A stretch of DNA of 64,000 nt from Fasciola hepatica (Eukaryota > Platyhelminthes > Trematoda > Plagiorchiida > Fasciolidae): assembly GCA_948099385.1 (NCBI GenBank), contig CANUEZ040000191.1, positions 9,920,001 through 9,984,000 on the forward strand. Direction: 5' to 3'. This document shows, piece after piece, positions 1 to 55,585 of the stretch. Each line of letters starts with the position of its first letter. The first letter of the stretch is position 1. Below the pieces are notes generated by a model that worked only from the letters and a program-made list of their open reading frames with translations, ran no database searches and was not told where the DNA came from. A program made the position numbers and the translations under genes.

Positions 1-26
1 GGATGAAACAGCTGTACAGTGAGTGC
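1..26 (+). ncRNA. Partial hammerhead motif cut by the window edge
   Basis: Only the 3' half is present: GGAT, GAAA, the CAGCTGTA stem-III/scissile segment and the CAGTG strand of stem I. The predicted scissile bond is between 16 and 17. Confidence 0.6.
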
Positions 27-408
27 TTCCATGGATTTCAATGCTCAGTTGAGCGTTCAAGCTGCATGATCAATCATATTATACAAATCTAATCTAATAT
101 AATCTAATGTCGTACTACTAATCAATTGCATGCTTAGTGAGGAAGCTGTGTAGGTTTATCATTTGGAAAAGCATTGGTAGTACTTAGGCCCCCAAAAGAG
201 ATGTCATCAATCATAGGAGTCGATCGGTGTGCGCGAAGCCGGTTGTTACCATTCAAATTTGAAGCCAGTTTGGGAAGGGTGCTATATATGATGTAGTGTA
301 GATGTTGAACAAAGCGTTGATATCCATCCCGGATAGCCTTGTGTTGTTGAGTTGTTCGATTCACAATGGTTCAGCGGTTGTTGGAGTCCCCGTGGTTGCT
401 CGGTCGAT

Positions 409-464
409 GTGCACTGCTGATGAGTCGAGTCCGAAAAAGGATGAAACAGCTGTACAGTGAGTGC
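409..464 (+). ncRNA. Type I hammerhead ribozyme-like motif, copy 1
   Basis: Read 5' to 3': stem I strand CACTG, core CTGATGA, stem II region, core GAAA, a two-pair stem III (A-C...G-U closed by AGCT), scissile trinucleotide GTA, and stem I return strand CAGTG, which pairs perfectly with CACTG. This is the order of helices and boxes of a type I (stem I open) hammerhead. Stem II is unusual: between CTGATGA and GAAA lies GTCGAGTCC-loop-GGAT, with GAGTC duplicated. Either the inner GTCC/GGAT or the outer GTC/GAT can pair. The loop here is GAAAAA instead of the usual GAACAA. Predicted cleavage is between 454 and 455. The very short stem III matches animal hammerheads that act best as dimers, which suits a tandem array. 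Activity is inferred, not shown. Confidence 0.75.
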
Positions 465-845
465 TTCCATGGATTTCAATGCTCAGTTGAGCGTTCAAGC
501 TGCATGATCAATCATATTATACAAATCTAATCTAATCTAATCTAATCTCCTACTACTAATCAATTGCATGCATAGTAAGGAAGCTGTGTAGGTTTTTCAT
601 TTGGGAATGCGTTGGTTGTACTTAGGCCCCTACAGAGAATTCATCCATCATAGGAGTCGATCGGTGTGCGCGAAGCTGGTTGTTACCATTGAAATTTGAA
701 GCCAGTTTGGGAAGGGTGCTATATATGATGTAGTGTAGATGTTGAACAAAGCGTTGATAGCCATCCCGGCTAGCCTTGTGTTGTTGAGTTGTTCGATTCA
801 CAATGGTTCAGCGGTTGTTGGAGTCCCCGTGGTTGCTCGGTCGAT

Positions 846-901
846 GTGCACTGCTGATGAGTCGAGTCCGAACAAGGATGAAACAGCTGTACAGTGAGTG
901 C
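846..901 (+). ncRNA. Hammerhead motif, copy 2
   Basis: Core intact; loop GAACAA; scissile bond 891/892. Confidence 0.75.
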
Positions 902-1288
902 TTCCATGGATTTCAATGCTCAGTTGGAAGTTCAAGCTGCATGATCAATCATATTATACAAATCTAATCTAATCTTATATAATCTAATCTCCTACTACTA
1001 ATCAATTGCATGCATAGTAAGGAAGCTGTGTAGGTTTATCATTTGGAAAAGCGTTGTTAGTACTTAGGCCCCCAAAAGAGAATTCATCCATCATAGGAGT
1101 CGATCGGTGTGCGCGAAGCTGGTTGTTACCATTCAAATTTGAAGCCAGTTTGGGAAGGGTGCTATATATGATGTAGTGTAGATGTTGAACAAAGCGTTGA
1201 TAGCCATCCCGGATAGCCTTGTGTTGTTGAGTTGTACGATTCACAATGGTTCACCGGTTGTTGGAGTCCCCGTGGTTGCTCGGTCGAT

Positions 1289-1344
1289 GTGCACTGCTGA
1301 TGAGTCGAGTCCGAACAAGGATGCCACAGCTGTACAGTGAGTGC
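1289..1344 (+). ncRNA. Hammerhead motif, copy 3, core broken
   Basis: CTGATGA and stem I are kept but the GAAA box reads GCCA (1323-1326), which should abolish catalysis. The expected scissile bond would be 1334/1335. Confidence 0.65.
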
Positions 1345-1733
1345 TTCCATGGATTTCAATGTTCAGTTGGGCGTTCATGCTGCATGATCAATCATATTAT
1401 ACAAATCTATTCTAATCTAATCTAATCTAATCTAATCTCCTACTACTAATCAATCGCATGCATAGTAAGGAAGCTGTGTAGGTTTTTCATTTGGGAATGC
1501 GTTGGTTTAACATAGACCAATGAAGATAAGTCATCCAACATAGGAGTCGATCGGTGTGCGCGAAGCTGGTTGTTACCATTCAAATTTGAAATCAGTTTTG
1601 GAAGTTTGCTATATAATTTAGTGTAGATTTTGAACAAAGCGTTGATAGCCATCCCGGATAGCCTTGTGTTGTTGATTTGTTCGATTCACAATGGTTCAGC
1701 GGTTGTTGGAGTCCCCGCGGTTGCTCAGTCGAT

Positions 1734-1789
1734 GTGCACTGCTGATGAGTCGAGTCCGAACAAGGATGAAACAGCTGTACAGTGAGTGT
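1734..1789 (+). ncRNA. Hammerhead motif, copy 4
   Basis: Core intact; scissile bond 1779/1780. The flanking CTTCC block begins TTTCC in this copy. Confidence 0.75.
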
Positions 1790-2174
1790 TTCCATGGATT
1801 TCAATGCTCAGTTGAGCGTTCAAGCTGCATGATCAATCTTATTATACAAATCTATTATAATCTAATCGAATCTAATCTCCTACTACTAATCAATTGCATG
1901 CATAGTAAGGAAGCTGTGTAGGTTTTTCATTTGGGAATGCGTTGGTTGTACTTAGGCCCCTACAAAGAAGTCATCCATCATAGGAGTCGATCGGTGTACG
2001 CGAAGCTGGTTGTTGCCATTGAAATTTAAGCCAGTTTGGGAAGGGTGCCCGATATGATGTAGTGTAGATGTTGAACAAAGCGTTGATAGCCATCCCGGCT
2101 AGCCTTGTGTTGTTGAGTTGTTCGATTCACAATGGTTAACCGGTTGTTGGAATGCCCGTGGTTGCTCGGTCGAT

Positions 2175-2230
2175 GTGCACTGCTGATGAGTCGAGTCCGA
2201 ACAAGGATGAAACAGCTGTACAGTGAGTGC
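2175..2230 (+). ncRNA. Hammerhead motif, copy 5
   Basis: Core intact; scissile bond 2220/2221. Confidence 0.75.
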
Positions 2231-2612
2231 TTCCATGGATTTCAATGCTCAGTTGAGCGTTCAAGCTGCATGATCAATCATATTATACAAATCTAATCTA
2301 ATCTAATCTGAACTCCTACTACAAATCGATTGCATGCATAGTAAGGAAGCTGTGTAGATTTTTCATTTGGGAATGCGTTGGTTGTACTTAGACCCCCAAA
2401 AGAGAAGTCATCCATCATAGGAGTCGATCGGTGTGCGCGAAGCTGGTTGTTACCATTCAAATTTGAAGCCAGTTTGGGAAGGGTGCTATATATGATGTAG
2501 TGTAGATGTTGAACAAAGTGTTGATAGTGATCCCGGATAGCCTTGTGTTGTTGATTTGTTCGATTCACATTGGTTCAGCGGTTGTTGGAGTCCCCGTGGT
2601 TGCTCGTTCGAT

Positions 2613-2668
2613 GTGCACTGCTGATGAGTCGAGTCCAAACAAGGATGAAACAGCTGTACAGTGAGTGC
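2613..2668 (+). ncRNA. Hammerhead motif, copy 6
   Basis: Core intact; stem II loop is AAACAA; scissile bond 2658/2659. Confidence 0.75.
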
Positions 2669-3054
2669 TTCCATGGATTTCAATGCTCAGTTGGGCGCTC
2701 AAGCTGCATGATAAATCATATTATACAAATCTACTCTGATCTAATCGAATCTAATCTCCTACTACTAATCAATTGCATGCAAAGGAAGCAAGCTGTGTAG
2801 AGTTTTCATTTTGGAATGCGTTGATTGTACTTAGGCCCCTACAGAAATGTCATCCATCATAGGCGTCGATCGGTGTGCGCAAATCTGGTTGCTACCATTC
2901 AAATTTGAAGCCAGTTTGGGGAGTGTGCTATATATGATGTAGTGTAGATGTTGAACAAAGCGTTGATAGCCATCCCGGATAGCCTTGTGTTGTTGAGTTG
3001 TTCGATTCACAATGGTTCAGTGGTTGTTGGAGTCCCCGTGGTTGCTCGGTCGAT

Positions 3055-3110
3055 GTGCACTGCTGATAAGTCGAGTCCGAACAAGGATGAAACAGCTTTA
3101 CAATGAGTGC
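3055..3110 (+). ncRNA. Hammerhead motif, copy 7, core broken
   Basis: The first box reads CTGATAA, stem III has lost its G (CAGCTTTA), and the stem I return strand is CAATG, which mismatches CACTG. Three separate lesions make this copy almost certainly inactive. Confidence 0.65.
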
Positions 3111-3490
3111 TTACATGTGTTTCAATGCTCAGTTGAGCGTTCAAGCTGCATGATCAATCATATTATACAAATCTAATCTAATCTAATCTAATCTCGTACT
3201 ACTAATCAATTGCATGCATAGAAAGGAAGCTGTGTAGGTTTTTCATTTGGGAATGCGTTGGTTGTACTTAGGCCCCTACAGAGAATTCATCCATCATAGG
3301 AGTCGATCGGTGTGCGCGAAGCTGGTTGTTACCATTGAAATTTAAGCCAGTTTGGGAAGGGTGCTATATATGATGTAGTGTAGATGTTGAACAAAGCGTT
3401 GATAGCCATCCCGGATAGCTTTGTGTTGTTGATTTGTTCGATTCACAATGGTTCAGCGGTTGTTGGAGTCCCCGTGGTTGCTCGGTCGAT

Positions 3491-3546
3491 GTGCGCTGCT
3501 GATGAGTCGAGTCCGAACAAGGATGAAACAGCTGTACAGTGAGTGC
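3491..3546 (+). ncRNA. Hammerhead motif, copy 8
   Basis: Core intact; the stem I strand is CGCTG, which still pairs with CAGTG through a G-U wobble; scissile bond 3536/3537. Confidence 0.75.
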
Positions 3547-3924
3547 TTCCATGGATTTCAATGCTCACTTGAGCGTTGAGATGCATGATCATTGATATTA
3601 AAGAAATCTATTCTAATCTAATCTAATCGCGTACTACTAATCAATTGTAGGCATAGTAAGGAAGCTGTGTAGGTTTTTCATTTGGGAATGCGTTGGTTTA
3701 ACATAGACCAATGAAGATAAGACATCCAACATAGGAGTCGATCGGTGTGCGCGAAGCTGGTTGTTACCATTCAAATTTGAAGCCAGTTTTGGAAGTTTGC
3801 TATATAATTTAGTGTAGATTATGAACAAAGCGTTGATAGCTATCCCGGATAGCCTTGTGTTGTTGAGTTGTTCGATTCACAATGGTTCACCGGTTGTTGG
3901 AGTCCCCGCGGTTGCTCGGTCGAT

Positions 3925-3980
3925 GTGCACTGCTGATGAGTCGAGTCCGAACAAGGATGAAACAGCTGTACAGTGAGTGC
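3925..3980 (+). ncRNA. Hammerhead motif, copy 9
   Basis: Core intact; scissile bond 3970/3971. Confidence 0.75.
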
Positions 3981-4366
3981 TTCCATGGATTTCAATGCTC
4001 AGTTGAGCGTTCAAGCTGCATGATCAATCATATTATACAAATCTATTATAATCTAATCGAATCTAATCTCCTACTACAAATCAATTGCATGCATAGTAAG
4101 GAAGCTGTGTAGGTTTTGCATTTGGGAATGCGTTGGTTGTACTTAGGCCCTCAAAAGAGAAGTCATCCATCATAGGAGTCGATCGGTGTGCGCGAAGCTG
4201 GTTGTTACCATTGAAATTTAAGCCAGATTGGGAAGGGTGCTATATATGATGTAGTGTAGATTTTGAAGAAAGCGTTGATATCCATCCCGGATAGCCTTGT
4301 GTTGTTGAGTTGTTTGATTCACAATGGTTCACCGGTTGTTGGAGTCCCCGTGGTTGCTCGGTCGAT

Positions 4367-4422
4367 GTGCACTGCTGATGAGTCGAGTCCGAACAAGGAT
4401 GAAACAGCTTTACAATGAGTGC
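4367..4422 (+). ncRNA. Hammerhead motif, copy 10, damaged
   Basis: CTGATGA and GAAA are kept, but CAGCTTTA loses the stem III C-G pair and CAATG weakens stem I. It shares these two lesions with copy 7, so they spread with the trimer duplication or arose in a common ancestor. Confidence 0.65.
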
Positions 4423-4803
4423 TTACATGGGTTTCAATGCTCAGTTGAGCGTTCAAGCTGCATGATCAATCATATTATACAAATCTAATCCAATCTAATC
4501 TAATCTCCTACTATTAATCAATCGCATGCATAGTAAGGAAGCTGTGTAGGTTTTTCATTTGGGAATGCGTTGGTTGTACTTAGGCCCCTACAGAGAATTC
4601 ATCCATCATAGGAGTCGATCGGTGTGCGCGAAGCTGGTTGTTACCATTGAAATTTGAAGCCAGTTTGGGAAGGGTGCTATATATGATGTAGTGTAGATGT
4701 TGAACAAAGCGTTGATAGCCATCCCGGATAGCTTTGTGTTGTTGATTTGTTCGATTCACAATGGTTCAGCGGTTGTTGGAGTCCCCGTGGTTGCTCGGTC
4801 GAT

Positions 4804-4859
4804 GTGCGCTGCTGATGAGTCGAGTCCGAACAAGGATGAAACAGCTGTACAGTGAGTGC
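4804..4859 (+). ncRNA. Hammerhead motif, copy 11
   Basis: Core intact with the same G-U wobble stem I (CGCTG) as copy 8, one 1,313-bp period upstream; scissile bond 4849/4850. Confidence 0.75.
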
Positions 4860-5237
4860 TTCCATGGATTTCAATGCTCACTTGAGCGTTGAGATGCATG
4901 ATCATTGATATTAAAGAAATCTAATCTAATCTAATCTAATCGCGTACTACTAATCAATTGTAGGCATAGTAAGGAAGCTGTGTAGGTTTTTCATTTGGGA
5001 ATGCGTTGGTTTAACATAGACCAATGAAGATAAGTCATCCAACATAGGAGTCGATCGGTGTGCGCGAAGCTGGTTGTTACCATTGAAATTTGAAGCCAGT
5101 TTTGGAATTTTGCTATATAATTTAGTGAAGATTATGAACAAAGCGTTGATAGCTATCCCGGATAGCCTTGTGTTGTTGAGTTGTTCGATTCACAATGGTT
5201 CACCGGTTGTTGGAGTCCCCGCGGTTGCTCGGTCGAT

Positions 5238-5293
5238 GTGCACTGCTGATGAGTCGAGTCCGAACAAGGATGAAACAGCTGTACAGTGAGTGC
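5238..5293 (+). ncRNA. Hammerhead motif, copy 12
   Basis: Core intact; scissile bond 5283/5284. Confidence 0.75.
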
Positions 5294-5679
5294 TTCCATG
5301 GATTTCAATGCTCAGTTGAGCGTTCAAGCTGCATGATCAATCATATTATACAAATCTATTATAATCTAATCGAATCTAATCTCCTACTACAAATCAATTG
5401 CATGCATAGTAAGGAAGCTGTGTAGGTTTTTCATTTGGGAATGCGTTGGTTGTACTTAGGCCCTCAAAAGAGAAGTCATCCATCATAGGAGTCGATCGGT
5501 GTGCGCGAAGCTGGTTGTTACCATTGAAATTTAAGCCAGTTTGGGAAGGGTGCTATATATGATGTAGTGTAGATGTTGAAGAAAGCGTTGATATCCATCC
5601 CGGATAGCCTTGTGTTGTTGAGTTGTACGATTCACAATGGTTCACCGGTTGTTGGAGTCCCCGTGGTTGCTCGGTCGAT

Positions 5680-5735
5680 GTGCACTGCTGATGAGTCGAG
5701 TCCGAACAAGGATGAAACAGCTGTACAGTGAGTGC
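5680..5735 (+). ncRNA. Hammerhead motif, copy 13
   Basis: Core intact; scissile bond 5725/5726. Confidence 0.75.
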
Positions 5736-6116
5736 TTCCATGGATTTCAATGCTCAGTTGAGCGTTCAAGCTGCATGATCAATCATATTATACAAATCTA
5801 ATCTAATCTAATCTAATCTCCTACTACTAATCAATCGCATGCATAGTAAAGAAGCTGTGTGAGTTTTTCATTTGGTAATGCGTTGGTTTCATTTAGGACC
5901 CTACAGAGAAGTCATCAATCATGGGAGTCGATCGGTGTGCGCGAAGCTGGTTGGTACCATTGAAATTTGAAGCCAGTTTGGGAAGGGTGCTATATATGAT
6001 GTAGTGTAGATGTTGAACAAAGCGTTGATAGCCATCCCGGATAGCCTTGTGTTGTTGAGTTGTTCGATTCACAATGGTTCACCGGTTGTTGGAGTCCCCG
6101 TGGTTGCTCGGTCGAT

Positions 6117-6172
6117 GTGCACTGCTGATGAGTCGAGTCCAAACAAGGATGAAACAGCTGTACAGTGAGTGT
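6117..6172 (+). ncRNA. Hammerhead motif, copy 14
   Basis: Core intact; loop AAACAA as in copy 6; scissile bond 6162/6163. Confidence 0.75.
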
Positions 6173-6557
6173 TTCCATGGATTTCCATGCTCAGTTGCAA
6201 GTTCAAGCTGCATGATCAATCATATTATAAAAATCTAATCTGATCTAATCGAATCTAATCTCCTACTACTAATCAATTGCATGCGTAGTAAGCAAGCTGT
6301 GTAGATTTTTCATTTTGGAATGCGTTGATTGTACTTAGGCCCCTACAGAAATGTCATCCATCATAGACGTCGATCGGTGTGCGCGAAGCTGGTTGTTACC
6401 ATTGAAATTTAAGCCAGTTTGGGAAGGGTGCTATATATGATGTAGTGTAGATGTTGAACAAAGCGTTGATAGTGATCCCGGATAGCCTTGTTTTGTTGAG
6501 TTGTTTGATTCACAATGGTTCAGCGGTTGTTGGAGTCCCCGTGGTTGCTCGGTCGAT

Positions 6558-6613
6558 GTGCACTGCTGATGAGTCGAGTCCGAACAAGGATGAAACAGCT
6601 GTACAGTGAGTGC
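6558..6613 (+). ncRNA. Hammerhead motif, copy 15
   Basis: Core intact; scissile bond 6603/6604. Confidence 0.75.
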
Positions 6614-7000
6614 TTCCATGGATTTCAATGCTCAGTTGAGCGTTCAAGCTGCACGATCAATCGTGTTATACAAATCTATTCCAATCTAATCTAATGTAAT
6701 CTCCTACTACTAATCAATTGCGTGCATAGTAAGGAAGCTGTGTAGGTTTTTCATTTGGGAATGCGTTGGTTGTACTTAGGCCCCCAAAAGATAAGTCATC
6801 CATCATAGGACTCGATCGGTGTGCGCGAAGCTGGTTGTTACCATTGAAATTTGAAGCCAGTTTGGGAAGGGTGCTATATATGATGTAGATTAGATGTTGA
6901 ACAAAGCGTTGATAGCGATCCCGGATAGCCTTGTGTTGTTAAGTTGTTCGATTCACAATGGTTCACCGGTTGTTGGAGTCCCCGTGGTTGCTCGGTCGAT

Positions 7001-7056
7001 GTGCACTGCTGATGAGTCGAGTCCGAACAAGGATGAAACAGCTGTACAGTGAGTGC
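7001..7056 (+). ncRNA. Hammerhead motif, copy 16
   Basis: Core intact; scissile bond 7046/7047. Confidence 0.75.
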
Positions 7057-7442
7057 TTCCATGGATTTCAATGCTCAGTTGAGCGTTCAAGCTGCATGAT
7101 CAATCATATTATACAAATCTATTATAATCTAATCTAATCTAATCTCCTACTACAAATCAATTGCATGCATAGTAAGGAAGCTGTGTAGGTTTTTCATTTG
7201 GGAATGCGTTGGTTGTACTTAGGCCCCCAAAAGAGAAGTGATCCATCATAGGAGTCGATCGGTGTGCGCGAAGCTGGTTGTTACCATTGAAATTTAAGCC
7301 AGTTTGGGAAGGGTGCTATATATGATGTAGTGTAGACGTTGAACAAAGCGTTGATAGCCATCCCGGATAGCCTTGTGTTGTTGATTTGTTCGATTCACAA
7401 TGGTTCACCGGTTGTTGGAATGCCCGTGGTTGCTCGGTCGAT

Positions 7443-7498
7443 GTGCACTGCTGATGAGTGGAGTCCGAACAAGGATGAAACAGCTGTACAGTGAGTGC
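7443..7498 (+). ncRNA. Hammerhead motif, copy 17, stem II variant
   Basis: GTCGAGTCC is replaced by GTGGAGTCC, so the outer GTC/GAT pairing is lost while the inner GTCC/GGAT hairpin stays; scissile bond 7488/7489. Confidence 0.7.
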
Positions 7499-7889
7499 TT
7501 CCATGGATTTCAATGCTCAGTTGAGCGTTCAAGCTGCATGATCAATCATATTATACAAATCTAATCTAATCTAATCTAATCTAATCTAATTACCTACTAC
7601 TAATCAATTGCATGCATAGTAAGGAAGCTGTGTAGGTTTTTCATTTGGGAATGCGTTGGTTGTACTTAGGCCCCCAAAAGAGAAGTGATCCATCATAGGA
7701 GTCGATCGGTGTGCGCGAAGCTGGTTGTTACCATTGAAATTTAAGCCAGTTTGGGAAGGGTGCTATATATGATGCAGTGTAGACGTTGAACAAAGCGTTG
7801 ATAGCCATCCCGGATAGCCTTGTGTTGTTGATTTGTTCGATTCACAATGGTTCACCGGTTGTTGGAATGCCCGTGGTTGCTCGGTCGAT

Positions 7890-7945
7890 GTGCACTGCTG
7901 ATGAGTGGAGTCCGAACAAGGATGAAACAGCTGTACAGTGAGTGC
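7890..7945 (+). ncRNA. Hammerhead motif, copy 18, stem II variant
   Basis: Same GTGGAGTCC variant as copies 17 and 19; scissile bond 7935/7936. Confidence 0.7.
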
Positions 7946-8331
7946 TTCCATGGATTTCAATGCTCAGTTGAGCGTTCAAGCTGCATGATCAATCATATTA
8001 TACAAATCTATTATAATCTAATCTAATCTAATCTCCTACTACAAATCAATTGCATGCATAGTAAGGAAGCTGTGTAGGTTTTTCATTTGGGAATGCGTTG
8101 GTTGTACTTAGGCCCCCAAAAGAGAAGTGATCCATCATAGGAGTCGATCGGTGTGCGCGAAGCTGGTTGTTACCATTGAAATTTAAGCCAGTTTGGGAAG
8201 GGTGCTATATATGATGTAGTGTAGACGTTGAACAAAGCGTTGATAGCCATCCCGGATAGCCTTGTGTTGTTGATTTGTTCGATTCACAATGGTTCACCGG
8301 TTGTTGGAATGCCCGTGGTTGCTCGGTCGAT

Positions 8332-8387
8332 GTGCACTGCTGATGAGTGGAGTCCGAACAAGGATGAAACAGCTGTACAGTGAGTGC
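8332..8387 (+). ncRNA. Hammerhead motif, copy 19, stem II variant
   Basis: Same GTGGAGTCC variant; scissile bond 8377/8378. Confidence 0.7.
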
Positions 8388-8778
8388 TTCCATGGATTTC
8401 AATGCTCAGTTGAGCGTTCAAGCTGCATGATCAATCATATTATACAAATCTAATCTAATCTAATCTAATCTAATCTAATTACCTACTACTAATCAATTGC
8501 ATGCATAGTAAGCAAGCTGTGTAGATTTTTCATTTGGGAATGCGTTGATTGTACTTAGGCCCCTACAGAAATGTCATCCATCATAGGCGTCGATCGGTGT
8601 GCGCAAATCTGGTTGTTACCATTCAAATTTGAAGCCAGATTGGGAAGGGTGCTATATATGATGTAGTGTAGATGTTGAACAAAGCGTTGATAGCCATCCC
8701 GGATAGCCTTGTGTTGTTGAGTTGTTTGATTCACAATGGTTCAGCGGTTGTTGGAGTCCCCGTGGTTGCTCGGTCGAT

Positions 8779-8834
8779 GTGCACTGCTGATGAGTCGAGT
8801 CCGAACAAGGATGAAACTGCTGTACAGTGAGTGC
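8779..8834 (+). ncRNA. Hammerhead motif, copy 20
   Basis: Core intact; the stem III loop is TGCT in place of AGCT; scissile bond 8824/8825. Confidence 0.72.
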
Positions 8835-9161
8835 TTCCATGGATTTCAATGCTCAGTTGAGCGTTCAAGCTACATGATCAATCATATTATACAAATCTAA
8901 TCTAATGTAATCTAATTACCTACTACTAATCAAGTGCATGCATAGAAAGTAAGCTCTGTATGGTTTTCATTTGGGAATGCGTTGGTTGTACTAAGCCCCA
9001 AATGGGAAGTCATCCATCATAGGAGTCGATCGGTGTGCGCGAAGCTGGTTGTTACCATTCAAATTTGAAGCTATTTCGATAAATGTGCTATACGATATAA
9101 TTTATTTGTTGAACAAAACGTTGATAGCCATATCGGATAGCCTTGTGTTGTTGAGTTGTTC

Positions 9162-9170
9162 GATTCACAA
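9162..9170 (+). promoter_or_regulatory. B-box-like element, typical of each satellite monomer
   Basis: GTTCGATTC agrees with the RNA polymerase III B-box core (GGTTCGANNCC) and recurs in most monomers 50-60 bp before the hammerhead (for example near 355-363 and 9162-9170). About 38 bp upstream is TAGCCATCCCGG, only a weak A-box match. Sm-alpha-type hammerhead SINEs have an internal pol III promoter, so the same is plausible here but unproven. Confidence 0.3.
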
Positions 9171-9212
9171 TGGTTCATCGGTTGTTGGAGTCCCCGTGGT
9201 TGCTCGGTCGAT

Positions 9213-9268
9213 GTGCACTGCTGATGAGTCGAGTCCGAACAAGGATGAAACAGCTGTACAGTGAGTGC
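9213..9268 (+). ncRNA. Hammerhead motif, copy 21
   Basis: Core intact; lies in the first of the two matching edge monomers; scissile bond 9258/9259. Confidence 0.75.
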
Positions 9269-9646
9269 TTCCATGGATTTCAATGCTCAGTTGAGCGTTC
9301 AAGCTACATGATCAATCATATTATACAAATCTAATCTAATGTAATCTAATTACCTACTACTAATCAAGTGCATGCATAGAAAGTAAGCTCTGTATGGTTT
9401 TCATTTGGGAATGCGTTGGTTGTACTAAGCCCCAAATGGGAAGTCATCCATCATAGGAGTCGATCGGTGTGCGCGAAGCTGGTTGTTACCATTCAAATTT
9501 GAAGCTATTTCGATAAATGTGCTATACGATATAATTTATTTGTTGAACAAAACGTTGATAGCCATATCGGATAGCCTTGTGTTGTTGAGTTGTTCGATTC
9601 ACAATGGTTCATCGGTTGTTGGAGTCCCCGTGGTTGCTCGGTCGAT

Positions 9647-9702
9647 GTGCACTGCTGATGAGTCGAGTCCGAACAAGGATGAAACAGCTGTACAGTGAGT
9701 GC
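9647..9702 (+). ncRNA. Hammerhead motif, copy 22 (last of array)
   Basis: Core intact; scissile bond 9692/9693. The array stops about 36 bp downstream. Confidence 0.75.
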
Positions 9703-9739
9703 TTCCATGGATTTCGATGCTCATTTGCGTGCTTAGGGA

Positions 9740-10480
9740 TTCACGGTATTTGGTGATTATTCCAATTTTTAAAGGAATTTAACAGATTCTCCTGTAAAGT
9801 CCACAGGATTTCCGGCTTAGTAATTATCGCATCCCAATTTCCCATCGTGCTCAATCTCCACCGACTGTTCAGAAACTGCGAAATGTGTACTCGTTAAAAC
9901 AAAGCTGGTTTCAGACGCGGCCATGATTGAATCGACCACAAATGTGCTCTTATGGAAACCTCAAAATCACAGACACGAATACTTTAGACTTACACTCTCT
10001 ATGTTCCTCGGTCTGAGGGTGGTGCTAGATTCAGTCGGGTGCATCGTTCTCCGTTAATGTCTCTTATTCAAAAGAACGCTATGGAATTAGATGCCTCTAT
10101 TCCATGGCTTATGTGCGAACAGCCGAAGGCGAATGTCTGCTGATGAAGGTCTTTCACCCGAGTTCTCTTCGGAAAATGATGTTCGTCAGTATTATCCCTT
10201 TTCGCCCTTCATCGTGAATTTCTCACTTCAAATGATTCTCCAGATAGCCTTACCTTTGTGTAAGAATAGTGGCAATTATCTTTGCTCAGGCACTAAACCC
10301 ACTCACTTGTGATACGCGGACGATATTGTTCGTCTGAGATATGATCCAGCTAAGATGCAATCTTTCCCAGGTAGCACGAACAACAACGCAGCTACTTCTT
10401 GACGCCGTTTTTATTTTCGAATTCTACAACGTGGCTGCAAGACTGGGCCAGTGCTACACTATACTTCTTTCTTGCAGGGG
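9740..10480 (+). mobile_element. Non-LTR (LINE) reverse-transcriptase relic
   Basis: Translating with frame changes gives the ordered blocks of a flatworm-type LINE reverse transcriptase: an IIPIF block at about 9,755; a degenerate GFRPG-region; MFLGLRVVLDSV (about 10,001-10,036), matching the usual FLDLKAAFDSV with the catalytic Asp replaced by Gly; CANSRRRMSADEGLSPEF; VRQYYPFSPFIVNF, in place of VRQGCPLSPFLFNF; then, after a stop (10,310-10,312), YADDIV with the intact catalytic YADD at 10,313-10,324; and LQDW near 10,440. Several frameshifts and stops are present, so this is a dead copy. It begins within about 10-20 bp of the end of the satellite array. The clade (RTE or CR1-like) is not settled. 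Weak similarity to the thumb region may continue to about 10,700. Confidence 0.85.
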
Positions 10481-16179: not shown

Positions 16180-16470
16180 TTATCCGAAAATGCGGTATCC
16201 CTCTACTCACATTTATTGCAGCAATGGTTTCTAGTTAGTTTACCGAAACACCAACATTTTAGTAAAGCACCTACAGAGGAGTGGTCCGTCACTGGAGTCG
16301 TTCGTTGTGCGGGAAATGCTCTCAAACTCAAAGCATTTGTGGAAAAAATGCAATCTGTAAAGTGAGACACTGATAACCAGTCCAGACATCTTGGATGTTA
16401 GGTGCTCAACTGACAATGGTTTGGCCTGAGTGTGAACATTTGAGGATGGGGAAGGCTTGTCTCATTTTCA
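16180..16470 (+). repeat. Worn solo copy of the satellite monomer
   Basis: CCTACAGAGGAGTGG...GGAGTCGTTCGTTGTGCGGGAAATGC (16,269-16,320) matches the monomer block CCTACAGAGAA...GGAGTCGATCGGTGTGCGCGAAGC. The stretch 16,370-16,430 (TGATAACCAGTCC...CTTGGATGTTAG...CAATGGTTTGG) matches TGATAGCCATCCC...CTTGTGTTGTTGAG...CAATGGTTCAG. A hammerhead-like end follows (GTGTGAACATTTGAGGATGG) but the core boxes are gone. It sits alone, so the family can disperse. Confidence 0.6.
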
Positions 16471-32310: not shown

Positions 32311-35300
32311 TCGTAATTAGCCATCTCATTTCGAATACGTCCCTGTTTTTCCCAGTATCTAATAAAGTCACAAACCTTGAAAACGTAACACGGCATCCGC
32401 ATATTTTCTTTGAGATTCGAATCCAATAACTGCCGTTGCATCAATGACCAAGTTGAAACATGTTGGCGAGCACAGTTTTTTTTAATTTTCCAATTCACAC
32501 GTCGGTGTTAACCGTTTCTCAGTTTATTGCCATTCACTTTTCACCTGGTTGGACAGAACGTTACATATTCTCTTTATCCTCTAAACATTACCTTATCCTT
32601 TCCTACACATATTTATGTATAATTTCAGTTTTCAAAGGATTCTTAGTCATGCCGTCGACTAATTTATAGCACTGCATGAACACAGCATGTTAGTGTGTTG
32701 AATTCGAATAGATTAGCTTGTTCACACCAGTAACAACAGCGTATGATGTGAATCGTTTATTTTGGTTCGGAGAGACACAGGCGTTACCCTGTGTTCTTAT
32801 GAAAAGTAGATCAGTTCTGAAATATGTATGGTAGCCTAGTATATAATTCAACTGATAGTTATGAAATGAACAATCAGGCTTCCAATGTTTGTCTGATAAT
32901 GCAGATGAGTTTCAGTGTACCTTAATTTGAATTGAATCATAATCGTTATGATACAACTGAATGTTTTGTTGGCATTTCCATTGCGTCGTATTTTGATCAA
33001 AGTTAGTTTCTTATATTGGTTCACTTTCTTCGGTTTCACACTAGAAGGCGAGTCATAATTGTTGTGACCGTGTCGAACACTGATTGGATTTCAGTGGTGA
33101 AAAGTTCTATTGTGAATATCAGCATTCGGTCGAGGTATAGAAAGAAAGTCACGGTTGATCTGAACCCATTCAAACTAGTAGGTCAGACTCACCGATTTGA
33201 ATGCGTTCAGTGATGTATGTTGGAAACGTTCGATGTGCAACCGACGGAGAGGACTTCCTACGATACCTAGATGGAAACGTAAAATAGCATATGGCGTTTT
33301 AGCAAAAATCGAACATCGGCTGTCAGCCAGAACAGCAGGTTGCCATTATTCTGCTCCAGTGCTCAAGCACTGTGTTTTGTACTCAGTTAAGGCAGGGTTA
33401 TCATCCAGGCACTAACTTCATTATTCAGTAAAGCGGACAAATTTATTTTTTTATATATGCCTGTGCATGGAGCCGATTCCCAATAATTGTGTAAGCACTC
33501 CGAGCGAAACGACCATGGCAAACACAAATGCAGTGACAAAAAACGCAAATTCTCGTTATCAAAATATAAATGTACTTGCAGCTGTCCAGAATAAGTTAAC
33601 AGAAATGATGCACACAAAAGTGACCGTGAAAATGCTTCATTAGCCATTATCAATATTTGACCACCTGCCTGATTGCAAGTCGTTGAGACAACAAGGAAGT
33701 ATTCCCATTAGTTTGCGGTTATTTAGAAGCTACCAAAACCTTCGTTTTATTGCGATTCCTGCACAAAATCATCCTCAATTATTTTTATATCTAACATGTA
33801 CTGACTGTGCACGTGTCACTGCTGAGACCCAAATGTTAACTACTATAACTATTCGAAGCCTAAATTTTCAATCGGCCAACACCAACACTGTGATTTATAC
33901 ATTGAGAATGAGTTAAAATTGCCTGTTCAAACCACACATTATAGTTGTTCACATCAAGAGTGCTAGAAAAACTCATACACTATTTCTCAAATTAGTACCT
34001 ATTTATCCGAATCTATGTCCTAAAATGTTCCTAAAATGTATCGACTCTACAATGAACACGTTAGTTATAAAATCCGAAATGAACACTCATATGGAACCAG
34101 TAACACCATATTTTTGTTCGATTATTTTCACAAATCTGAATTCAGGACGTTCTGTTATCTATGAAAACCTGTTCCATACGTCCTACCAGAATTATCAGCA
34201 GGACAGAGCTTAATTCGTCTTACGTAGTTTGTGCTAACTATAAGGAACATCAACAATTGAGCCATGTGCCTAAAAGCCCAATTTTCAAGTCAAATAAAGT
34301 GCACCGATTTACCTAAAGTAAATCGACTTTTCACATCTTAAGCCATGATAACTAAACACCCCTTTCCAATGTCCTGGAAAATGACCAACATAGGTTTGTG
34401 TACGTTTAGATTTTCACAAATACCCTAACCATTGAGATTGAGATGAGGTCATGCAATCACGCCTTAGTTCATATTTTATATAAATATGGGTTATCGCCTG
34501 GATACCTAGCAAGTGGATTACGAGATTTGTGATTTGCTTGTACCGCATGAGGCGAGCCCGCGACGAGTAATATCAAGTACCGCTAACATGACAATGGGTA
34601 TTGAATCACCTTAGAAATCCGAAATTCTTCAATAGGTGATTTAAGTGGGAAGCTCAACTGAAACATTTATGCTTGGACCAGAAAAAGTATTTTGGAAGTA
34701 GACTGAATGGAGAAAGTGAATATCTGCACGGAACTCAACAAGGTACTACTAACTATTGCATCAAACTAAGGGAGCCAGAGAAGTTTCACGTGGACTCTGG
34801 TTATCCAGCCAAACAATAGAAACCATCCCCAAAGGTATTTATGTTGCAAGCAGCAGTGCAGTTTGAACACTCAAGTGACCATTGAGAAGCATGGAATCAC
34901 TTTTCAGCTGTTTATTCCTCTTAAGGATTCATCAACTGAGAATTTTTCATTGACCTCTAACATGCCCATGTGTTCCACGCGGATGTTCATCGAATAAGAT
35001 TTTCCACCTTCCCAATCTCTGTCATGTCATCTGATGAATTCTCGTACTCGTATTTTCCCGTGTGACTATAATTTGAATTTCGATTCAATCGCTTATTTTA
35101 TTGAGATTTTTAAATACAATCTGAGATTCTATAGAATAATGTAATAGTCAAACTGCTTATCTCAACTTACAAAGTAAGCTGATTCAAAGCCAAATTATGA
35201 CTAGTTCTGAACAAGCACATTTTGTTGCTCCTACACGACTTTACCAACACAAAATTACATAACTTTATATGTACTCTTACTTGCATTGAGTGGCGGGGTT

Positions 35301-36134
35301 TCTAGACAAAACCCAATGTGGCCTTCATGTGTGTGGGCGACAGCTGTGCTCAAGATTCAGAAGGAACCACGGTTTTGCCACTTCTAATGTGCCACTACCA
35401 TGATGGAAAATGAAGTTCGGAGGGAAAATGGCGCTAGGTTACTTTTATTGTATATATTCAAACGTTACTGGGTATACAACGTTCAATTCATTCTTGTATA
35501 TTGAACAATTAACTGAAAGATTCTGGTCAATACTACAAATATGTATCAGAGGGGTGATGATAAAGCACCGTTGAGAGCCAGGTCGGATAAACTGTTAGTT
35601 AGTCGATCGACTTATAAAAGGGAACCCCACGGTCGATTCACGGAGGAGGCTCAGTAAATATGTATCCATTGGTATTCCCAACGAGCCAGATCAGGCAACC
35701 ATACAGTGCTTTCATAAATTTGAACAGCGATTTGAGGAATCGTACTGCATGATGGGTCGCTGATAAAACATACCAATATCATTGAAACGATAATGAATAC
35801 ATCTAACGATTTTTGAATCCAATATCATTGAATCCTTGTCGAACACTGGTTTCCATTTGTGTGGTTGGATGAAGTAGATGGGATATCTAAATACTGAAAT
35901 GCAAACACACGCTACTGGAGGGAGCCATGCGGTATTTAGGCCATGACTAAGCTCGGTGGTATGGTGAAGCTAGCATCAGCATTGACTGGACGTAAACTTT
36001 CTTGTCTTCCGTGTTGCAGACATTGTGGGACATACCTCAGATAGAAATTCAGTGACTCGATTTCTGTGTGGTTTATGTGGTGAATTTTTATGTATTTAAA
36101 AGCTCACTTGCCATTCACAAAAAAGAGAAGACAG
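32311..36134. other. No recognised gene or element
   Basis: AT-rich DNA with short open frames on both strands (none above 88 codons) and no domain, repeat or convincing splice-bounded exon. Confidence 0.4.
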
Positions 36135-47209: not shown

Positions 47210-48335
47210 GATAGGTGAACTGGGTTGTCTCTATTCACCGTTTGAATCGACGTATCGTCTTGATCGTTCACTGTCGTTGTGTTTCTACTAATTCTCGCGA
47301 CAATCGTCTCCGCGGACGGGTTTGCATTACGCACTGTTTGTTGAAGAATGGTGTATCTGTAAACTATGTGTCGGTACTCAGGTATGGGAGGGCCTCTGAC
47401 CCACTTTCACTGTAGAATACTGTCTCCAGCGAGGTAAGACCGGGCTGCAATATATCTCCGTTTCTTTTCTATTTTTCTGCATAGGATGTCCTACGCAAAG
47501 CTCTCTCTGGTTTGCCAAACAGTGAAGTTGAAATCTTTCCAGGGAACAGAGTTTCACCTAGGGCAAGCAGCTGATATCTTCTTGTTGAGCGACGATTCAC
47601 AAATTATTCAACAAACATTGGCTCGTTTGTCGATCGATGAGTGTCGATATAGTATGTGATTTACGCCTTCAAAAGCAAGTTACTTCTTCCAAACTGACAA
47701 GAGTCTGTGTCGGTACCAACTATTATTAGTATTCAGTTAGGAGCAGCCAGTGGCTTTATTGCTTCGAGAGCTTCATTGCAGGTGGTGTTGATGTAAGGGA
47801 GGAAGTTACGTCACAGATTGGGAGAGCCAGGATGGCTTTGACCAAAATTGTACCATCTGTTGTGAGTCCATGATATACTGCTTTCCCTCTGGAAAGGGAT
47901 TTATATCGTCACGATTCTCAGTGTTTCGATAACGTTGCGAGACCTTGCCCCTTCGCGTTGAGGATCATCGGTGACTTCACGTATTTAACCGCTTATATCT
48001 CCGGAACACTCCTCGTGTCTGGTGGGAATATCGGGTGAGAAATGAAGAGGTTTGTCGTCATGTGTTTGGAGCTGATAGTCGCCCACTGACCAGGATAACC
48101 ACCCTACATCAACTGGGATGGCAGAAGAAGATATTGTGCATGCCTGAAAAAAGCGGCTTAGCAGTCAGGCTATGAATTGGTGCAGGAGCATGAAGAACTA
48201 TGCTTCGGCCGTTGCTTTCCGCATACCCGTTTGGGACCCAGGTGACGAGGATCACCGTTTATTAGAGAGGCTGAGTGACACGTTTGGGAACCAAAACCAG
48301 TGATGCGAGTGCTGTATAGCACTAGGTGGTAAAAC
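47210..48335 (+). mobile_element. LINE relic, reverse transcriptase to C terminus
   Basis: The longest LINE copy here. Ordered blocks: CLLKNGVSVNYVSVLR (about 47,335-47,385); EVRPGCNISPFLF (about 47,431-47,470, for GVRQGCPISPFLF); ALSGLPNSEVEIFPGNRV; then ADIFLLSDDSQIIQQTLARL (from about 47,570), where the YADD motif has lost its Tyr and one catalytic Asp. FTPSK, FIAGGVDVREEVTSQIGRAR and RCETLPLRVED (about 47,935) follow. RVWWEYRVRNEEVCRHVFG, LGWQ...CMPEK, NWCRSMK, WDPGDEDHRLLERLSDTFGN and CECCIAL close it near 48,335. These are the conserved C-terminal blocks of an abundant flatworm LINE family. Stops and shifts make it inactive. The endonuclease half was not found. Confidence 0.88.
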
Positions 48336-54479: not shown

Positions 54480-55200
54480 GTTGCGAAGCTGTCCCTGGCC
54501 GCATTACATGTGACAGCTGCTGAATCACCATAGGTAACGGGTATTCGATTTCTGACCACAGTACTGCTTACTCGGTCATTCCATCCAATCTTCGCAATAC
54601 TACGCAAATATCGACAGTCAAAAACATCAAGACGACGAACATCTTTCCCACGCAGCGTCCATGTCTCTCAACTAAACAGCAAAACTGAAAACACCAGTGC
54701 ATAGTACGCACGACCGTTCACCTTCTGCGAAATAACAGATTGGCGCCACAAGTGCTACAATCCAGCGTACGTCGCTCGAGCCTTGGGTATACGCGTGCTC
54801 ACCCTAATGTCGTACTACCATTCGTCATCAAGGTGCTCCCAAGGTTCTTGAAGCGGTCAACAATTGCCAGCGTTTTCACGCCGAGCATTGTGCTCGTAAC
54901 TGTTGATGTACAGTCTCGCACCTTACCTTCACATTTGGAGGTGCAAAGCACATGCCGGAGGGAGCTATAGCTTATTTGATTCTACCTAGTGCCATTTGCG
55001 CGTGTTCCGAGAATTTGAGCAAGCACACAAGGTATTTTACAATTCACTGGTTCAACACCCACACTTTCGGGACTTCCTAAATCATTCTTTATCATTTGGT
55101 CCAAGACGAAAGGCACCGACCAATGCAGTAGCGAAAGTAAACAAGTTCCAATGCGATTTTCAATAAGGAGCTTTAGCTCAATAACTCCCATTTAGTTATT
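54480..55200 (-). mobile_element. LINE reverse-transcriptase 3' relic, minus strand
   Basis: On the minus strand PFVLDQMIKNDLGSPESVGV (about 55,055-55,115) precedes CFAPPKCEG (about 54,940), VDRFKNLGSTL for VDKFVYLGSCI (about 54,840-54,870), VNGRAYYALVFSVLLF, ETWTLRGKDVRRLDVFDCRY and LRSIAKIGWNDRV (about 54,570). This is the same LINE family as the relics at 10 and 47 kb, shifted in several places. The YADD segment is lost. Confidence 0.8.
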
Positions 55201-55439: not shown

Positions 55440-55585
55440 CGTATTTATGGGTTCGAAGTAGAGTTCGCGCCTTGGTTCCTGCTCCAGATGGGTCCGGTGG
55501 ATATGAATTGCTGATGGTTATCAAAACGGATGAAACTTAAGGGAAGTGCTTCCATGATTTCGGTCGTGATTTCAGTATTGTAAAT
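55440..55585 (+). repeat. Worn solo satellite copy with a decayed hammerhead
   Basis: GCTGATGGTTATCAAAACGG-ATGAAAC, then AGTGCTTCCATGATTTC, matches the hammerhead and the block after it in the array. The upstream ATGGGTTCGAAG matches the B-box area. The first core box is CTGATGG. The spacer between the core and GGAT is 11 nt, against 16 nt in the array, so this copy lacks the 5-nt duplication. Confidence 0.65.

Follow-up and report, generated by a model that had tools for sequence, protein, structure and literature searches.

A tandem hammerhead satellite of Fasciola hepatica as a likely offshoot of a dispersed tRNA-related SINE with Penelope-type insertion ends

The stretch of DNA analysed here, referred to as the window, comprises 64,000 nucleotides of Fasciola hepatica (contig C191, positions 9,920,001-9,984,000; assembly GCA_948099385.1, 1.5 Gb in 656 contigs), and its first 9,727 positions are occupied by a tandem satellite of approximately 440-bp units with hammerhead ribozyme motifs. 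It likely derives, as an offshoot that probably cleaves poorly, from a dispersed short interspersed element (SINE) combining a tRNA-like part with a hammerhead, i.e., from a retrozyme, which was itself likely inserted by a Penelope-like reverse transcriptase (RT). Since the insertions of the dispersed SINE end in a paired way like those of Penelope elements, Penelope likely copies the SINE. The satellite can be regarded as a new, likely weakened member of the Sm-alpha/retrozyme kind, and the novelty lies in how its dispersed relatives are inserted, namely with a Penelope-type architecture.

The dispersed SINE and its insertion ends

One exact hammerhead pattern has 29,292 matches in the assembly (11,441 + 17,851, window-type units included), compared with 0 for the reversed control. 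The dispersed unit is 400-401 bp long, many copies being truncated, and carries a tRNA-like part just upstream of a hammerhead that is devoid of the stem inserts of the window units. A tRNA-like part beside a hammerhead is the architecture of Sm-alpha, a tRNA-related SINE with a hammerhead (PMC2770079, PMC8490949). In addition, both the window and the dispersed arrays consist of tandem units of a few hundred base pairs with type I hammerheads and no long terminal repeat (LTR), as is typical of non-LTR retrozymes. The tRNA model RF00005 scores above threshold in five of the 26 loci scanned (L032, L035, L025, L041, and L038), bearing out the guess of the initial annotation that the satellite might belong to a SINE family, and ARAGORN predicts a tRNA in four of ten loci, namely tRNA-Val (five L025 units and L032), tRNA-Phe (L023), and tRNA-Met (L035). 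Locus L038 harbors two further tRNA matches above threshold outside the SINE copy (1249-1321 on the minus strand, 39.1 bits; 1710-1782 on the plus strand, 41.6 bits), which may be tRNA genes or other SINEs.

Regarding the hammerhead itself, stem variants were counted via exact cores, a fuzzy scan having been discarded as mostly false matches. Among 90 exact-core motifs from fetched loci outside C191, stem II reads TTCC-CAACAA-GGAT in 75, and six stem I pairs are found in 82, a figure biased because the loci were picked by the exact 3' strand of stem I. The common dispersed score with the hammerhead model RF00163 is 28.8, as in L020, L032, and L042, and the dimer predicted for this common form leaves both cores unpaired. 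Over C10:1037677-1203761, hammerhead variants recur on one strand every ~27-30 kb, which suggests a large tandem repeat.

Insertion ends were scored at 41 loci, the first listed matches of the exact pattern (28, then 13 more), with unit position 1 being the first base past the predicted cleavage site. Fifty-six of 65 outward-pointing 3' termini fall within two bands, 46-72 or 86-106, which cover 48 of the 401 positions. At every locus where both ends are scorable (17/17; 13 in the first 28 loci and four in the later 13), the left part lies head to head in inverse orientation, with one end near unit position 66 and the other near 99, and no equal-ended locus was found. Two positions about 30 nt apart, one per end, in a head-to-head arrangement are the hallmark of Penelope-type insertion. 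Flanking exact repeats of 12-14 bp outside TA runs, i.e., candidate target-site duplications (TSDs), occur at eight of the 41 loci, and four more lie within TA runs. A control made on 28 locus pairs, and pertaining to these rather than to the 41-locus count, gave matches of at least 11 bp in 5/28 true pairs vs. 9/756 mismatched pairs, eight of the nine being TA runs.

It can be asked whether these copies are simply those of an ordinary SINE mobilised by a long interspersed element (LINE), whose RNA would be copied by a non-LTR retrotransposon and whose inverted left parts would be twin-priming inversions. LINE-made insertions also show 5' truncation, TSDs, and inversions, open reading frames (ORFs) for LINE-type RTs are found near some SINE copies, and LINE-like fragments are present in the window. 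However, twin priming should not fix both outer ends at two positions with complementary pairing at 17 loci out of 17; moreover, paired ends are seen in Penelope insertions of the same genome, in a comparison set made up of Penelope elements, and one insertion on C5 is a chimera of SINE and Penelope (both described below). A LINE-based origin therefore appears improbable. Plain twin priming of the SINE was dropped after both insertion ends had been measured.

Penelope-like elements of the same genome

Penelope-like RT ORFs adjoin two SINE copies. The full ORF comprises 831-833 amino acids (aa) with an RVT_1 domain, and its C-terminus can be aligned with the GIY-YIG domain that a coral protein bears. 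The GIY-YIG assignment follows from this alignment; the domain is not detected by Pfam in the Penelope ORF pieces of this genome, and none of the solved structures matches the ORF by sequence. Within the best 120 of 1698 matches, the closest are from Dicrocoelium dendriticum (56% identity), and lower ranks include Paragonimus, Schistosoma, and the cestode Sparganum, a spectrum that by itself would make a digenean host likely.

Among the Penelope places scored (139 of 43,192 candidates) are tandem arrays that repeat every 2.7 kb and have inverted arms. A nine-unit array at C111:12952509-12975997 consists of two minus units followed by seven plus units, with 833-aa open frames in eight of the nine. 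A pair of one long and one short end is present in all six insertions examined (C111, C77, C120, C189, C165, and C5), the two ends being separated by 20-31 nt when placed on the coordinates of a single family, to which the C189 insertion is only ~75% identical. TSDs of 12 bp flank the insertions on C120, C189, and C5, the one on C77 lies in a TA run, and flank matches on C111 and C165 amount merely to 6-7 bp; in a seventh insertion, on C4, only the left end is visible. Part of this sample was picked for oppositely oriented neighboring matches, so that inversion itself is not randomly sampled, while the long/short pairing was unknown beforehand. Such ends are the signature published for Penelope, namely an inverted pseudo-LTR (pLTR), one inverted end of which bears a 31-bp tail (PMC3846280), and an enzyme biochemistry in which two adjacent internal start sites are used, both DNA strands are cut and extended, and targets are AT-rich (PMC11167929).

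The chimera at C5:717101-723600, flanked by the 12-bp TSD GAATGTGTAGAG, links the two elements physically. It is composed of an inverted Penelope 3' part, a SINE piece, and a forward Penelope part that begins within the ORF, with the SINE piece located at the inversion junction. The latter is 162 nt long, encompasses most of the tRNA part together with the hammerhead, and is 99% identical to the L025 unit. A template jump of the Penelope enzyme would best explain this structure.

Palindromic arrays and their templates

Some SINE insertions are tandem arrays with two arms in opposite orientations. The array on C8 spans 7,572 bp with 19 units (eight minus and eleven plus) and is flanked by the 12-bp duplication ACTAAATCTTGT; in 16 of its 17 complete units, and in both arms, it carries a variant absent from the arrays on C10 and C2. 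Three private differences are common to all five complete units of the C2 array, and the 12 units of the C10 array display a mixture of variants in both arms. Within-array identity is 0.9986 for C8 and 1.0 for C2, compared with 0.991 between arrays. While inverted tandem repeats are difficult to assemble and the analysis rests on one assembly with no reads, the junctions and flanks differ among loci, several of which have matching TSDs on both sides, and inverted ends are also known in rotifer Penelope elements (PMC3846280); that the inverted arrays are assembly artefacts is thus very improbable.

As the end positions lie 66-99 nt past the cleavage site, a cleaved linear monomer would yield only short cDNAs, and the templates would therefore have to be uncleaved multimers or re-closed circles. 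Circular templates would best fit the C8 and C2 arrays, with linear multimers as the alternative. According to the latter, uncleaved multimers would be transcribed from existing arrays and the ribozyme would have no role in insertion. This fits with the equally efficient insertion of ribozyme-dead RNA by an anole Penelope in vitro (PMC11167929), with the nine 2.7-kb units on C111, since Penelope forms tandem arrays with inverted arms although no hammerhead was found in it, and with the mixed variants in both arms on C10. In contrast, the private variants within the C8 and C2 arrays are simply explained by a circle derived from one unit, and a linear RNA of 19 units would have to span 7.6 kb. 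Linear multimers are a serious possibility, which we place somewhat under an even chance. The birth of an array in a single step is put forward tentatively, at little short of an even chance: an RNA circle produced by the ribozyme would be primed by Penelope from the two ends of the cut DNA, one at each of two fixed start sites, and copied in many rounds, giving a palindromic array (8 + 11 units on C8) of a kind able to seed later a satellite of nearly a megabase, such as that of the window.

Proposed mode of copying and points against it

In the favored scheme, the dispersed unit would be transcribed by RNA polymerase III, given the tRNA-like part directly upstream of the hammerhead. By analogy with published retrozymes, self-cleavage of the RNA would follow, possibly by two hammerheads dimerised through the palindromic CAGCUG, and a cellular ligase would join the RNA into a circle of 400 nt. 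The Penelope enzyme would then make one cut in each DNA strand, with a stagger of about 12 bp, and initiate cDNA synthesis at two internal positions, ~66 and ~99 nt past the cleavage site, one per DNA end. Copying round the circle would produce tandem units, and joining of the two cDNAs head to head would produce inverted arrays like those seen. The enzyme is what we infer from the ends, their pairing, and the duplications, which are themselves observed in the assembly. On the way to the window satellite, the recognisable promoter would have been lost and inserts gained in stems I and II, with growth mainly by recombination.

A number of observations weigh against this scheme. With regard to the insertion ends, 24 of the 41 loci do not have two scorable ends (truncated or out-of-band end), and 29 of the 41 show shorter flank matches or none, i.e., they lack a 12-bp TSD and do not lie in a TA run. 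The end bands were defined after viewing the first 28 loci, and therefore only the 13 later loci serve as a holdout. Concerning the enzyme, the sequence common to the start sites of the SINE and of the one Penelope family examined is limited to 11-14-nt matches at chance level, and no hammerhead was found in that family. No cross-mobilisation occurred between rotifer Penelope families, though one of them moved a host gene in trans (PMC3846280). Given that the anole element inserts ribozyme-dead RNA in vitro, cleavage could be dispensable, and public reads yielded no RNA ends at the cleavage site of this element (PMC11167929). The units of the C10 array (0.9928) are barely more alike than units taken from different arrays. 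As for the ribozyme, no copy in the window reaches the 34-bit threshold of the RF00163 Hammerhead_1 model, which is attained by L001 alone (36.0) among the 26 loci scanned. In the common dispersed form, the basal position of stem II is a U.U mismatch, and the hammerhead fold of the monomer is predicted at -13.3 vs. an optimum of -18.1 kcal/mol. Finally, the predicted gain upon dimerisation of this form is equalled or beaten in 78% of shuffles, and the dimer itself is therefore no evidence.

The satellite of the window

The array at 1-9727 (plus strand) has a period of 442 with 22.1 copies and 92% matches according to Tandem Repeats Finder (TRF). This confirms, together with 22 complete hammerhead motifs on the plus strand 434-447 bp apart, the tandem hammerhead satellite proposed in the initial annotation. 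The array is the right-hand edge of a far longer block. The 50 kb directly upstream of the window continue it; counted together with the array in the window, they contain 136 motifs and 135 complete monomers, whose mean pairwise identity is 0.917. Beyond these 50 kb, the upstream sequence was sampled in ten places (five stretches of 2 kb and five of 500 bases): all eight between positions 9,840,001 and 9,200,001 of C191 contain the satellite on the plus strand, the sample at 9,000,001 contains it on the minus strand, and that at 8,500,001 gives merely a 71% match. The samples to 9,200,001 being all satellite on the plus strand, the block is likely near a megabase long, as sampled at points rather than read through. 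Its right end (9727), the only end of the pair that was reached, falls near unit position 30 and thus at neither of the two insertion-end positions.

An alignment with the dispersed unit shows that stem II of the window consensus is longer by five nucleotides and that its stem I contains a duplicated AGTG (4 nt). The counterpart of the two end positions of dispersed insertions (unit ~66 and ~99) is exemplified at 521-566 (plus strand), as located by alignment and by end mapping in dispersed copies. Near this counterpart, TRF detects short AATCT runs of varying length within the units (e.g., 524-548, 1404-1438, and 7558-7590). The tRNA-like promoter part is, judging from the alignment, decayed; one example lies at 767-840 (plus strand), with an equivalent place in each unit, and no tRNA match was obtained in the window at the thresholds used.

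The hammerhead motifs, all on the plus strand, start with a partial one at 1-21, of which the window edge leaves the 3' part. Motif 1 (412-459, from stem I to stem I) has its predicted cleavage site at 454/455 and scores 20.0 bits with RF00163, below threshold. The others, found by a looser scan, are located at 849-896, 1292-1339 (motif 3, core broken by GCCA), 1737-1784, 2178-2225, 2616-2663, 3058-3105 (motif 7, in which the core, CTGATAA, the stem III pair, CTTTA, and stem I are broken), 3494-3541 (motif 8, G.U in stem I), 3928-3975, 4370-4417 (motif 10, stem III pair, CTTTA, and stem I broken), 4807-4854 (motif 11, G.U in stem I), 5241-5288, 5683-5730, 6120-6167, 6561-6608, 7004-7051, 7446-7493, 7893-7940, 8335-8382, 8782-8829, 9216-9263, and 9650-9697 (motif 22). 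The exact pattern CTGATGA-N{4,30}-GAAA matches 22 times in the window, including 20 matches within the array, when 2.33 are expected from shuffles; no match to the hammerhead motif was obtained in the viral contigs scanned.

By its motif (CUGAUGA, GAAA, a UH cleavage site, and an open stem I) the hammerhead is of type I, in the order given in the initial annotation. Most other structural statements of that annotation also hold: the 5 bp of stem I can form in 20 of the 22 copies, a G.U being involved in two of these, and are disrupted by CAATG in the other two, and the figure of 19 copies out of 22 with all core residues is recovered when the C-G pair of stem III is counted. The two-pair stem III described there is possible, the alternative being a single C-G pair capped by AGCT. 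The extra nucleotides in stems I and II, the extension of the array past the window, and the Penelope-type ends of the dispersed relatives go beyond that annotation.

Whether the window units are active ribozymes, processing satellite RNA into 434-447-nt monomers, is another matter. Both core blocks, CTGATGA and GAAA, are intact in 20 of the 22 window copies and in 129 of the 135 monomers, where the 11 core residues vary by 0.0047 per column vs. 0.045 overall. Variation as low as this is reached in a fraction of 0.00025 of random 11-site draws, but also in 16 of 441 blocks of the same shape, and homogenisation could therefore contribute to it. Furthermore, every copy is below the RF00163 threshold, so that the covariance-model check suggested in the initial annotation turns out negative; at E-values up to 10, 13 window copies match the model over its full length with 19.1-20.0 bits. 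Stems I and II carry inserts, the hammerhead fold of the window-form monomer is predicted at -3.3 or -8.2 vs. an optimum of -22.3 kcal/mol, and the core is partly paired in the predicted dimer (CUG). Active window ribozymes are thus unlikely, and on these models the efficient self-cleavage expected earlier is probably not a property of the window units.

Elsewhere in the window, four decayed relatives of the dispersed unit with 67-81% identity are found at 16267-16314 (plus), 34857-34934 (minus; 79%, blastn E 6e-14), 35567-35754 (plus; 67%, E 7e-7), and 55495-55560 (plus). Fragments resembling LINE-type RTs are located at 9986-10330 (plus), about 260 bp to the right of the array end, 47317-47535 (plus), and 54638-55143 (minus).

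Relation to known elements and significance

The likeness to Sm-alpha and to retrozymes pointed out in the initial annotation is real. Sm-alpha and Sj-alpha of schistosomes are, like the SINE described here, tRNA-related, hammerhead-bearing, SINE-like elements that number in the tens of thousands in a fluke genome (PMC2770079, PMC8490949). The likeness is one of description. Sm-alpha-like elements have been linked to tRNA-Gln-TTG, whereas ARAGORN mostly assigns the present SINE to tRNA-Val. Penelope-type ends, which the present SINE has, are not described for Sm-alpha in the passages of these papers on the element. Non-LTR retrozymes of animals likewise exhibit type I hammerheads, tandem units of a few hundred base pairs, low GC content, and TSDs; circles have been proposed as their templates and Penelope as a candidate partner (PMC7229834). 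Unlike them, the present unit has a recognisable tRNA-like part, and its insertion ends provide direct genomic evidence on the copying enzyme, while the circle is here a proposal as well.

Regarding the ribozyme, the axolotl HHR_Amex1 has a one-pair stem III with a palindromic tetraloop, as here, and HHR_Amex2 has a U.U mismatch at the base of stem II, as in the common dispersed form, both being likened by description; these two axolotl hammerheads are weak as monomers and better as dimers (PMC7229834). In F. hepatica, both features are combined in one ribozyme, and host and unit differ. The Penelope-like elements share with the SINE a left part inverted head to head, a short tail on one end, a TSD, and AT-rich targets (PMC3846280, PMC11167929). 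In contrast to them, the SINE unit does not encode an RT, and it has no start-site sequence in common with the Penelope family examined. So far, Penelope has been proposed as the partner of animal retrozymes on the grounds that the two co-occur and that Penelope itself carries hammerheads (PMC7229834, PMC7761336). No report of Penelope-type ends on retrozymes was found in titles and abstract openings, most subscription papers being outside this search.

Which enzyme spreads animal hammerhead retrozymes is an open question. The paired insertion ends, common to the SINE and to Penelope insertions of the same genome, constitute direct genomic evidence for copying of the Penelope type. The private variants running throughout a TSD-flanked palindromic array make the birth of an array in one step testable, and both the paired-end and the private-variant tests can be applied to any genome bearing retrozymes.

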